This document shows positions 30,066-34,851 of a stretch of DNA of 43,045 nucleotides, one piece after another. The DNA is from Candidatus Roizmanbacteria bacterium RIFCSPHIGHO2_02_FULL_40_13b (GTDB lineage Bacteria; Patescibacteriota; Microgenomatia; UBA1406; HO2-37-13b). The stretch lies in assembly GCA_001789445.1 (NCBI GenBank), contig MFZQ01000010.1, positions 1 to 43,045 of the forward strand. Direction: 5' to 3'. Under the pieces are notes generated by a model, which did not search any database, was not told the DNA's origin, and saw only the letters and a program-made list of their open reading frames with translations. A program made the translations under genes and the position numbers. The first letter of the stretch is position 1; each line of letters starts with the position of its first letter.

Positions 30066-30071
30066 GATTAC

Positions 30072-30521
30072 ATGAACGTCCTCATTGCGTATGCGACAAA
30101 TTCCGGAGGTACCTATTTCGCCGCGCAGACTGTAAAAAAAGTACTCGAGGCTAAAAAGTTCAGTGTTACTACCGCAGAAGTAGAGGATTTGAGTCCTCAT
30201 GATTTTAAAAAGTACGACCTTATAATCCTCGGCTCGTGTAGTTGGAATTATAAGGATTTAGAGGGCCAGCTCCCGAAAAGTTTTGAAGAATTTGTAAAAA
30301 ACACTCCTGCAAACTCGTTGCAAAATAAAAAGTGCGCAGTATTTGGTTTGGGAGATAGTGAATATTTATATTTTTGCGGAGCTGTTGGAATTTTGGAGAA
30401 GTACATACAAAAAAACGGAGGAACGCCGATTACAGATTCACTGCGAATCGATGGATACTACAAACATGAAAAAGAAAATAATGAGAAACTTGAGAAATGG
30501 GTACATTCGCTACCTCTTTAA
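30072..30521 (+). CDS. Flavodoxin
   Basis: 149 aa from ATG 30072; the ORF-track start at 30012 lies within ychF. Flavodoxin fold with the FMN phosphate loop YATNSGGTYFAAQTV (residues 7-21, T/S-x-T/N-G-x-T type), LIILGSCSWNYKDLEGQLP (W-containing isoalloxazine loop) and CAVFGLGDSEYLYFCGAVGILEKYIQKNGG. It is a small FMN electron carrier. Its stop shares TTAA with the convergent response regulator. It lies near the ApbE/FMN-binding/RnfD-like module 1-3 kb away, so it may donate electrons to it; this is inference. Confidence 0.92.
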   Translation: MNVLIAYATNSGGTYFAAQTVKKVLEAKKFSVTTAEVEDLSPHDFKKYDLIILGSCSWNYKDLEGQLPKSFEEFVKNTPANSLQNKKCAVFGLGDSEYLYFCGAVGILEKYIQKNGGTPITDSLRIDGYYKHEKENNEKLEKWVHSLPL

Positions 30522-31349: not shown

Positions 31350-32567
31350 CTACTTATGCTGGAGAATTATTCCGAATGGAGTAGCACGTCCTTGTGGAAT
31401 AATATACCCACCACTCCACAGACTCGTTGAGGCTCCACTATCTAAATTGAGCGCATTTTGCACACCAAGAGCTTTGAGAACATGTGCGACTTCCGCAACG
31501 GTCGCGTTTTGAACAACGCCAATATAAACAGTGCTTCCAGTTGCGCCGATGAAACTTCTACTTCCTTTACTTCCCCGTTTTGGCTCCCCATCACCATTAA
31601 AGACAATGTTTCCATCAAGGACTAAAAGCGGCTGACTTGTGATAACACTGTCAACTCCCGTATCCCGTCCCCATTGGGAAGATTGGCCAACAAATCGAGC
31701 TGAACTTCCCGAGAAAATAACCGCCGGAACTGAACTGTACACGTTATTATCTGAATTAAAGTAATGCTTTGCCTTGTTCATGATAAGCGTATCGAACGAG
31801 TTTTTCTTACCATCACAGCTTGGGTATGAGGCTGGGCAAAAATACGGCCCGTTAATTCCCGCAAAACCCCCACTACGGGTAGTGTAATCGGCAAGTGAAA
31901 GAACCGGACAATCATTCCCACAATCACCGTCAGACGCAGTATCGACGACGACTCTCGTCGAATTAAGGTCAGCAGAAACGATATCCACCAAATAATCTCC
32001 AATATCTGCCGATACCTTTTGTCGTCGGTAACCGGAAGAAGGAGGCACATTATTTGCAACTATATTTTGGGGAATTGAAAATGTGGAACTTACTTGAGTT
32101 TGTTGCGCTGAAATATCTGCGCTAAGTTTATTTAGTGTTGCTTCAGCCGAAGCATAGTTTCTTTTGGATAAGAGCTCGAGTGCCGAAACATATGCCTCAT
32201 CAAACTTACTTGTTTTTGTGCTACTTTCTCGAAACTTAATAAGCGATTCATAAACAGTCACACTTTTTTTATACGAAGACTCTATTGCAGAAATCGTTTT
32301 CTCCAAATCCTTATTACTCTTGTATTGATCCTGACTTTTGAGAATCTCTAGCTCTTTTTGCGTTTGCTTCATGGATGAAAGTGTTTGTGTGAGCTTATCA
32401 TCAAGTGCTTTTCCATGCGTATCGAGTGTGTGAGCTTTTGAGTTCAAGATCACTGTTTGGTAGGTGAAAAATATTGAGATTCCAAGAACAGTTGAAAGAA
32501 AAATAGAATAGAATAATCTGTTTCTACGCTCAACATCATTAAAAAGATCTATAAGTGCTTTTTTCAC
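31350..32567 (-). CDS. Membrane-anchored phosphodiester glycosidase (NAGPA-like) domain protein
   Basis: 405 aa, GTG start at 32567. One N-terminal helix (residues about 20-36, LFYSIFLSTVLGISIFFTYQ) is followed by a coiled-coil/helical region (KLTQTLSSMKQTQKELEILK...), then the exported NAGPA-type domain: GGFAGINGPYFCPASYP, GSRSFIGATGSTVYIGVVQNATVAEVAHVLKALGVQNALNLDSGASTSLWSGG. The last stretch (NLDSGAST) is the conserved closing block. The family hydrolyses phosphodiester-linked sugars, often in exopolysaccharide or wall turnover. It lies 6 nt after apbE in the same direction, so it may be co-transcribed. Confidence 0.85.
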   Translation of the reverse strand: MKKALIDLFNDVERRNRLFYSIFLSTVLGISIFFTYQTVILNSKAHTLDTHGKALDDKLTQTLSSMKQTQKELEILKSQDQYKSNKDLEKTISAIESSYKKSVTVYESLIKFRESSTKTSKFDEAYVSALELLSKRNYASAEATLNKLSADISAQQTQVSSTFSIPQNIVANNVPPSSGYRRQKVSADIGDYLVDIVSADLNSTRVVVDTASDGDCGNDCPVLSLADYTTRSGGFAGINGPYFCPASYPSCDGKKNSFDTLIMNKAKHYFNSDNNVYSSVPAVIFSGSSARFVGQSSQWGRDTGVDSVITSQPLLVLDGNIVFNGDGEPKRGSKGSRSFIGATGSTVYIGVVQNATVAEVAHVLKALGVQNALNLDSGASTSLWSGGYIIPQGRATPFGIILQHK

Positions 32568-32573
32568 GTCTGT

Positions 32574-33458
32574 CTACAGCTTACCAAAAAGCTGGGCGTG
32601 AAATCCACTAGATCGTTTTACCTGTAAATCCTTATTGAGGATACAGTATTCAAATTGGAAATTTATTGAAAAGTTTTCTGGCGGAACCATAAATAGAGCA
32701 GTTGCAAGCCCATCAGCAAGTGCTGCAGAGTCCGCGATTACCCAGGAGGCAATAATTTCTTTTGGTGAAGAAAGTGTTTGCGGATATATTATATGATTGT
32801 ATTTTCCCCATGCTCTTCGATTTGTTGCCGAGCTACACATGCATCCATATTTCATCTTTATTGTTCCAATAATTTGTGTTGTATTAAGCGGATTTTCAAG
32901 TCCAACAGTAATCTCTTTGTCATTTGAAACATACGAAATATCTCCGCTTCCGTTTACGAGAAACCGTTTTACCCCTTTTTCTTTTAAAAAGGAAGTTGCT
33001 GTATCAACTAAAAATCCCTTTCCTACTGCTCCAAAATCAAAAAGCACCGGCTCCTTCACTTTTATTGTTGTGGTATCGATGATCTTAACTGTTTCAAAAA
33101 GATCGGGAACTTTGTTGATCTTTTTTTGAGAAATCAGTGAGTAATCGGCATCATACCCAAGTTCTTCAAGTGTATGACCAATAAACGGAGTAAGCTTTTT
33201 CTCTGATAAATCGTAAAGTTTGAAGTAGAGCTGGAGTATCTGAATAAATTCTTCAGGAACTTTTATTTTCCCTGTTTTATGTGAAATCTTCGAAACAAAT
33301 GAGTTTTTGATGAATCGTGAGTAGGTATTGTCAAACTCATGAGACTTATGAGTAATTTCTGAAGTGATACTGGTAAAAGCATCCTCTTTAATCTGGTCCC
33401 AAATGCTTATTTCCCACGTTGTCCCCATACTTTCATAGGCAAGTTTTTGGGGAAGCAT
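32574..33458 (-). CDS. apbE: FAD:protein FMN transferase (ApbE)
   Basis: 294 aa. MGTTWEISIW at the N-terminus, DNTYSRFIKNSFVSKIS, VLFDFGAVGKGFLVDTATSFLKEKGVKRFLVNGSGDISY (the core D-x-G-x-x-x-KG motif with G-GD), and SWVIADSAALADGLATALFMVP with the metal-binding Asp residues near the C-terminus. ApbE splits FAD and attaches FMN through a phosphodiester to Thr/Ser of partner proteins. There is no signal peptide or lipobox, so it looks cytoplasmic or N-terminally shortened. It follows the FMN-binding protein by only 5 nt and faces an RnfD-like gene, so all three very likely act together. Confidence 0.93.
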   Translation of the reverse strand: MLPQKLAYESMGTTWEISIWDQIKEDAFTSITSEITHKSHEFDNTYSRFIKNSFVSKISHKTGKIKVPEEFIQILQLYFKLYDLSEKKLTPFIGHTLEELGYDADYSLISQKKINKVPDLFETVKIIDTTTIKVKEPVLFDFGAVGKGFLVDTATSFLKEKGVKRFLVNGSGDISYVSNDKEITVGLENPLNTTQIIGTIKMKYGCMCSSATNRRAWGKYNHIIYPQTLSSPKEIIASWVIADSAALADGLATALFMVPPENFSINFQFEYCILNKDLQVKRSSGFHAQLFGKL

Positions 33459-33463
33459 ATTTT

Positions 33464-33916
33464 TTATGCTTTTGCTTGGGCTTTTATCTTTTCAAGTGCG
33501 TCCATAAATCCTTTTGGAGTGAGGGATGAACCGTTGACAACAGTGAGTGCGATTGAATCGATAGGTTTCCCAACTACTTTTTCACTAAATCCTGCCTTGA
33601 AAAGACCTTGCATTCTTTTTGTGGTGGTGTGTGTACCAAGACCCGTAAACTGTGCAGATGCGACGATGTCATCCTTAAGTGTCATCGTAATATCGATTTG
33701 CTCCGGACCATTTGGGGAAACATACCCCCCTTTTGCTTCATAGGTGCCATTTTTATATGTTGATTGTGTAGTTTCGTCAGGAGTTGTTGTCTCTATTGTC
33801 ACTGTATTTTTTTCTTCAATACCTACTGTTGGTTTTTTATTCAAACCAAATTGCCAAAAACCAAATCCGATAAGTGCAACAACGATAAGACCTATAATAA
33901 CGTATTTTGTATTCAT
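33464..33916 (-). CDS. Exported FMN-binding (PF04205-like) protein
   Basis: 150 aa from ATG 33916. One N-terminal membrane segment, YVIIGLIVVALIGFGFWQFG, and a Thr-rich spacer. The FMN_bind-like domain follows: YKNGTYEAKGGYVSPNGPEQIDITMTLKDDIVASAQFTG...FKAGFSEKVVGKPIDSIALTVVNGSSLTPKGFMDALEKI. The VVNGSSLTPKGF segment corresponds to the flavinylation motif SGATxTS of the family, with Ser in the place of the modified Thr. So apbE next door is its likely maturase. TATAAT ends 7 nt before the ATG. Confidence 0.8.
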   Translation of the reverse strand: MNTKYVIIGLIVVALIGFGFWQFGLNKKPTVGIEEKNTVTIETTTPDETTQSTYKNGTYEAKGGYVSPNGPEQIDITMTLKDDIVASAQFTGLGTHTTTKRMQGLFKAGFSEKVVGKPIDSIALTVVNGSSLTPKGFMDALEKIKAQAKA

Positions 33917-33923
33917 GAATCTG

Positions 33924-33936
33924 ATTATACTATACT
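33924..33936. promoter_or_regulatory. Back-to-back divergent leaderless -10 boxes
   Basis: Minus strand TATAAT (33929-33924), 7 nt before ATG 33916; plus strand TATACT (33931-33936), 6 nt before ATG 33943. The starts are only 26 nt apart, so each promoter's -35 must lie within the other gene. Confidence 0.65.
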
Positions 33937-33942
33937 TTATAT

Positions 33943-34851
33943 ATGCTTGAAATGCTAAAAAAGTTTGCAAATCTAAAAAATCCGCTTTTCCAATTTTTCC
34001 TCTATCTTCTGGCGTTTGCGTTTCTTTCAACATTCGATCTTTTCATTTCTGGATCTGGGCAGAAAGAAATAATTCAGTATGGATCAAATTTTGCAGTAAC
34101 CGTTGTAAGCGCCCTCGTTGTATATTATTTCGTTCGTTTCAAGTTGAACTTTGTAACTAGTAATCCATTTAATTTTTTCATTTCTTGTTTGATTGCGTAT
34201 TTACTTCTCCATCCAACAAACCCGTGGTGGTTTTTTGTGATAACGGTTCTATCGATCGCCGTTGGAAAGTATTTTGTGAAATTTAATAATATGCCGATTT
34301 TTAATCCAGCCGCCCTGGGAATTGTATTGGCGACAATAATAACGAGAGTTCTCTTTCTTTTAAAACTTGCACCAGATTATGTACTCGTTTCGTGGTGGGG
34401 AACGGATATGACCCAACAATTTTTGACCAAAACTCCCTTATTTTATATAGTTGCCGCACTGCTACTTCTTCGATTTATGTACTTTTCCCACAAATTTAGA
34501 AAACTGTATTACATGGCAACTTTTTGGATAGTGTACGTAGCATTCATCATCGTATACAGCGTACTGACAAATAATCAAAGCGTTCTAACAATCAATTCGT
34601 TTGCGATGATGGTATTTGTAACCACTGGATTTTTTTCGTTTGTGATGCTCACCGAGCCAAAAACTTCACCTATTTTCAGCAATCAACAAATTATTGTGGG
34701 AATTTTAGCCGCAGTATTCTTATTTGCAAACAATACATTTTTCGCCTCGCTCCCCATCGATCCATTTTTGAACACTGTTCTTGCGGCAAATTTGATGGTA
34801 TTTGTGTTTGGGTACTTTAGAAAGTTGACTTCAGGAATAGCCGAAGGTTGA
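33943..34851 (+). CDS. RnfD/NqrB-like membrane protein
   Basis: 302 aa with about eight to ten helices. Family markers: MPIFNPAALGIVLA (residues about 119-132, the NPAALG motif) and FVTTGFFSFVMLTEPKTSPI (residues 224-243, the FMLTDPVTSP-type motif of RnfD/NqrB/PF03116). The canonical SGAT flavin-attachment motif is not plainly visible; SWWGTDMT lies in a comparable loop. NqrB and RnfD carry covalent FMN and riboflavin in Na+- or H+-coupled complexes. No other Rnf/Nqr subunit is in the window. It shares a divergent promoter with the FMN-binding/apbE operon. Confidence 0.8.
   Translation: MLEMLKKFANLKNPLFQFFLYLLAFAFLSTFDLFISGSGQKEIIQYGSNFAVTVVSALVVYYFVRFKLNFVTSNPFNFFISCLIAYLLLHPTNPWWFFVITVLSIAVGKYFVKFNNMPIFNPAALGIVLATIITRVLFLLKLAPDYVLVSWWGTDMTQQFLTKTPLFYIVAALLLLRFMYFSHKFRKLYYMATFWIVYVAFIIVYSVLTNNQSVLTINSFAMMVFVTTGFFSFVMLTEPKTSPIFSNQQIIVGILAAVFLFANNTFFASLPIDPFLNTVLAANLMVFVFGYFRKLTSGIAEG

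Follow-up and report, generated by a model that had tools for sequence, protein, structure and literature searches.

A three-gene set conserved in genomes of the CPR was found at positions 32574–34851 of the window (the whole 43,045-nt stretch of DNA analysed here), in the 858-kb draft genome (90% complete) of a CPR bacterium, Candidatus Roizmanbacteria bacterium RIFCSPHIGHO2_02_FULL_40_13b. Among named bacteria, its closest relatives are Roizmanbacteria and Woesebacteria, both Microgenomates. The set encodes a FAD:protein FMN transferase (ApbE), an FMN-bind-like protein and, on the opposite strand, a short RnfD/NqrB-like membrane protein without a reductase domain. We consider it to be probably a minimal module for flavin-only transmembrane electron transfer, representing a branch of the NQR/RNF-like systems that has no reductase, with a likely function in the one-way export of electrons from a soluble donor to an outside acceptor. 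To our knowledge, CPR cells have almost no electron-transport chain, and a three-gene flavin set that is conserved and contains no haem or Fe-S ligands would let them dump reducing power outside cheaply. As neither redox subunit reaches its Pfam cut-off and the set lies outside the published definition of NQR/RNF-like systems, surveys built on either would miss it.

Locus layout and subunit features

The apbE gene (32574–33458, minus strand; 294 aa) is the sole one in the genome, and its product belongs to the ApbE family, with a PF02424 match (E = 3.5e-43; 148.5 bits, cut-off 25.6). Its start lies 5 nt from the stop of the FMN-bind-like gene (33464–33916, minus strand; 150 aa), which was identified by hhalign comparison with PF04205-positive relatives and by AlphaFold modelling. 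The gene for the RnfD/NqrB-like protein (33943–34851, plus strand; 302 aa) runs divergently from this pair, with the gene coordinates leaving 26 nt (33917–33942) between the two starts, as described in the initial annotation. The corresponding gap in relatives is approximately 13–131 nt, with called starts overlapping in one relative. Promoter and terminator scans gave signal no higher than shuffled background. Directly after apbE lies a gene for an NAGPA (phosphodiester glycosidase) protein with an N-terminal membrane anchor (31350–32567); this gene and the neighbouring response regulator and CopG antitoxin genes are not conserved with the module.

The RnfD/NqrB-like identity first given to the membrane protein is upheld by its fold. 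Its match to PF03116 (E = 9.7e-5, 22.3 bits) lies under the 27.7-bit cut-off; comparison with the fused RnfD-reductase family by hhalign gave a probability of 98.9% (E = 2e-17), and the 15 best PDB fold matches of the AlphaFold model (mean pLDDT 82.6) are all RnfD/NqrB chains. The 302-aa chain stops after the last membrane helix and carries neither PF00175 nor any cytosolic NAD/FAD domain, and profile alignment revealed no counterpart of the NqrB loop that holds the FMN-carrying Thr (SGAT site). Covalent FMN is therefore expected on the FMN-bind protein only, and the missing loop is in line with what has been published on NQR/RNF-like systems. The proposal that ApbE flavinylates its partners can accordingly be retained, as a prediction from the motif described below, for the FMN-bind protein, but not for the RnfD-like subunit. 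Conserved motifs of the latter are NP, WW and EPxTSP. Its PIFNP motif (residues 118–122; 34294–34308, plus strand) opens, by row alignment, with a Pro that is present in 18/18 rows of its clade, whereas residue 118 is His in 28/28 fused rows and in 82% of lone-subunit rows; judging from the NqrB loop, this residue probably sits at the inner face. Decay or truncation of a fused gene was ruled out as the origin of the short form, which is conserved and forms its own clade.

The FMN-bind-like protein comprises an N-terminal anchor (approximately residues 5–24), a Thr/Pro-rich linker and a C-terminal FMN-bind-like domain. The protein alone gave no Pfam match, PF04205 included; its family was linked to PF04205 members by hhalign (probability 93%, E = 3e-7), and AlphaFold predicted a confident domain over residues 51–150 (pLDDT ~87–94). 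A Foldseek search with this domain returned weak matches, with nothing at E ≤ 0.001; IscU-like proteins were on top, and the FMN-bind structures 8p2a and RnfG were also among these matches (E > 0.001). An IscU-like function was ruled out, as the protein contains no Cys. The predicted flavinylation site, VVNGSSLTPKGF (residues 126–137; 33506–33541, minus strand), contains an NGSS that matches the SGAT/SGAS of FMN-bind relatives column for column, and from this alignment, together with the published [S/T]GA[S/T] rule for flavinylation sites (PMC8238504), Ser131 (codon 33524–33526, minus strand) is the predicted FMN carrier. The site reads mostly V[N/S/A]G[S/A]SLT, and the exported FMN-binding protein with a flavinylation-like site recognised in the initial annotation has a plausible ApbE site.

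Conservation across CPR genomes and relation to NQR/RNF-like systems

Samples at order, class and phylum level were searched and gene neighbourhoods compared, the phylum sample being searched with the FMN-bind profile, such that its counts are lower bounds. The genomes are drafts, and claims of absence depend on their completeness. Across the class, 40 ApbE loci lie ≤4 kb from an RnfD-like gene, as counted with an RnfD profile that does not pick up every fused gene (that of G047, for example, is missed). Three locus types were distinguished. Type A, which is the published NQR/RNF-like system, joins the membrane domain and an FAD/NAD reductase in one protein (~500 aa) and is usually collinear with FMN-bind and ApbE genes; type B, that of the window, has a short membrane protein divergent from the FMN-bind–ApbE pair; and type C has a short membrane protein without FMN-bind or ApbE, some of its loci having a cupredoxin and a stand-alone reductase alongside. 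The membrane-domain tree sets type A apart from types B and C and groups the 17 type B rows, with one row that lacks the pair, in a single clade of 18 (SH-aLRT 85, obtained by a quick method without bootstrap).

All 17 linked type B rows are divergent and all 28 linked type A loci collinear, where these counts describe examined loci that were picked by match strength rather than at random. Recurrence of the divergent arrangement despite highly diverged proteins argues against a chance association, and the survey of CPR genomes finds the three genes conserved together, in keeping with the initial annotation of the set as one module. Both partner genes are present in 15/17 type B rows, with one of the others (L021) retaining an ApbE remnant only and the other (L023) ending at a contig edge. 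Type B loci occur in seven families (f1, f3, f10, f37, f73, f95 and f138) of several CPR classes. ApbE and FMN-bind co-occur across 42 compared genomes, the exceptions being contig-edge cuts, decay and one weak FMN-bind match, and the pair decays jointly: genome G076 has an ApbE remnant and no FMN-bind gene, and G074 has neither and keeps the RnfD-like gene alone. At locus level, the RnfD-like gene persists at L021 (5473–6906), where the ApbE remnant is 127 aa long and FMN-bind is gone, and at L022 (5996–6862), where both partners are gone.

In type C loci L065 (5779–7177), L071 (5289–7509) and L095 (5419–7501), a short RnfD-like gene lies beside a cupredoxin gene with neither ApbE nor FMN-bind; the cupredoxin is possibly a blue-copper carrier that replaces the flavinylated one. 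An OmpR-type response regulator gene was observed close to several type A loci (L079, L082, L083 and L084).

The two-subunit NQR/RNF-like systems, found partly in CPR, were defined with a membrane subunit that must be fused to an NAD-binding domain (Méheust 2021, PMC8238504). The definition also calls for an N-terminal PF03116 domain and for a flavinylation-associated gene cluster in which one target gene encodes a signal peptide or lipidation site. The window set shares with them an NqrB/RnfD-like subunit without the covalent-FMN Thr, one NqrC/RnfG-like FMN-bind protein and ApbE, but differs in having no fused PF00175 domain and in the divergent rather than collinear placement of the FMN-bind/ApbE pair (PMC8238504, PMC10979944), as well as in the Pro in place of His118, the separate clade and the position of both redox subunits under Pfam cut-offs. 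As the PF00175 domain required by definition is absent, we do not file the window set as a member of the NQR/RNF-like systems, though it probably works like one. The literature, supplementary tables apart, yielded the NQR/RNF-like system and no account of a reductase-less branch; we regard this branch as a variant of a kind already published.

Electron donor, acceptor and direction of flow

In the electron path that we favour, the RnfD-like protein would hold a non-covalent flavin in the membrane, as its fold and homology suggest, and would take electrons at the inner face from a soluble donor. These would pass to the FMN-bind domain outside, where ApbE is predicted from the motif to have attached FMN to Ser131 of the membrane-anchored protein, and from there to an external acceptor. 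The published model for NQR/RNF-like systems has one-way, outward flow (Méheust 2021, PMC8238504; Huang 2024, PMC10979944). A motif scan of 856 of the 858 kb of this 90% complete genome found no 4Fe-4S ferredoxin motif (CxxCxxCxxxC); since no classical ferredoxin-type Fe-S carrier was detected, the donor is probably flavin-based, with the FNR-type flavin reductase encoded on contig C28, flavodoxin or both as candidates. The flavodoxin gene of the window (30066–30521) lies ~2 kb past the end of ApbE with two other genes between. Flavodoxin is close to the module in the window only, is on another contig in G079, and was not found in 5/16 module genomes searched (G075, G080, G081, G162, which is 99% complete, and G593); it was therefore ruled out as a constant partner, and the link drawn to it in the initial annotation is weak.

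The C28 protein is the single FNR-type protein of the genome (FAD_binding_6 and NAD_binding_1), and it may dock on the RnfD-like protein in the manner of the fused domain, a split reductase for which type C loci L071 and L095 offer a parallel, as a divergent, separate FNR-type reductase adjoins the membrane subunit in both. We regard this as possible but doubtful. The same FNR type occurs in sister genomes that lack the RnfD-like gene (G077, G078 and G082), and the C28 protein is distant from the fused and most type C reductases (E ~1e-26 compared with 1e-50 to 1e-119). Module genomes G596 (94% complete, one contig) and G079 (82%) gave no FNR match, and where the fused type has a His ahead of its NPA motif, every row of the clade has Pro.

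Reversed flow, in which a host or environmental reductant outside the cell would feed the FMN-bind protein, then the RnfD-like protein and then a cytosolic acceptor such as flavodoxin, is in our view unlikely. It would follow the order known from NQR and RNF, where NqrC/RnfG, through its FMN, donates electrons to NqrB/RnfD, which sends them on in the direction of the cytosol, and the window set has no NAD(P)H domain to fix the direction. However, the fused and split relatives that have such a domain suggest an outward direction, and flavodoxin is not a constant partner.

No acceptor gene is conserved beside the module in the compared neighbourhoods. In 856/858 kb of the genome, neither a credible c-type haem protein nor the signature motifs of COX1 or CydA were found. 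Elsewhere in the genome, contig C14 encodes a ferric-reductase-like six-helix membrane protein (PF01794; L306, 1092–1766), near which, on the same contig, lies a copper-handling-looking cluster (L305).

Site of ApbE action and comparison with characterised systems

The N-terminus of the window ApbE, MLPQKLAYESMGTTWEISIW, has no hydrophobic stretch, signal peptide or lipobox. This appears general, as no clear hydrophobic signal segment was seen among ~60 CPR ApbE N-termini, a set that includes overlapping copies of one gene at some loci and was assessed by a simple hydropathy rule and by eye rather than by SignalP. Unlike these ApbEs, their FMN-bind partners are membrane-anchored or bear a lipobox (lipoboxes being present in several FMN-bind relatives), and the FMN-bind-like protein that adjoins ApbE in the window has an N-terminal hydrophobic anchor by the hydropathy rule, an anchor that may not equal a signal peptide. 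The question is thus raised of how an ApbE without an export signal could put FMN on an exported protein. An ApbE that likewise has no signal peptide is known from Klebsiella, in which a soluble fumarate reductase is flavinylated by the cytoplasmic enzyme (review PMC12052999); that substrate is soluble and cytosolic, whereas the presumed substrate in the window is exported. No known FAD synthase (PF06574) scored above cut-off in any module genome.

The absence of any signal peptide would also fit an ApbE that acts on another, cytosolic target and leaves the adjoining FMN-bind protein unflavinylated, as would a motif that reads NGSS rather than the canonical SGAT and the lack of a PF04205 match for the lone FMN-bind-like protein. 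We consider this quite improbable, given that the ApbE and FMN-bind genes lie side by side and are inherited together, that this ApbE is the only one in the genome, and that family members L212, L216 and L229 have the exact SGAS (VSGASLT). Family members from other parts of the phylum have this SGAS or NGAS. More speculatively, a stable, separate RnfD-like branch in CPR may be fed directly by soluble reduced flavin carriers with no dedicated dehydrogenase, and a cytosolic ApbE may flavinylate the outside flavoprotein before or during its export, in contrast to those characterised systems in which ApbE is extracytosolic. The Listeria FmnB extracellular electron transfer system (PMC9973259) shares an extracytosolic flavinylated carrier for electron export, flavinylation being predicted in our case, but has another membrane partner and an ApbE-like FmnB that is extracytosolic.

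RNF (RnfABCDGE) and Na+-NQR (NqrABCDEF) share with the window set the RnfD/NqrB and RnfG/NqrC homologues and ApbE. The window set differs in having no detected RnfB-, RnfC- or NqrF-type protein, no other linked subunit, no Fe-S path and no semicircular two-path electron flow. No RnfA/RnfE (NqrD/NqrE) gene is linked to the module, the few polytopic proteins scanned (165–260 aa) being of other families or matchless, and a complex reduced to one membrane subunit and one flavoprotein, as initially annotated, is what we see at this locus. A stripped-down RNF/NQR that makes an Na+ or H+ gradient, the ion-gradient role raised in the same annotation, is very improbable, although the membrane subunit is homologous to NqrB/RnfD and the genome encodes an ATP synthase a-subunit: a second route for electrons across the membrane was not seen, the missing 4Fe-4S motif implies no RnfB/RnfC and the single FNR-type protein no NqrF (none NqrF-like was found in 856/858 kb by motif and profile), and the flow proposed for two-subunit NQR/RNF-like systems is one-way. 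In Micrarchaeota (L025–L027), the RnfD-like genes follow a gene for a small and conserved protein with a membrane anchor (~150 aa), of which the L025 copy has no Pfam match.
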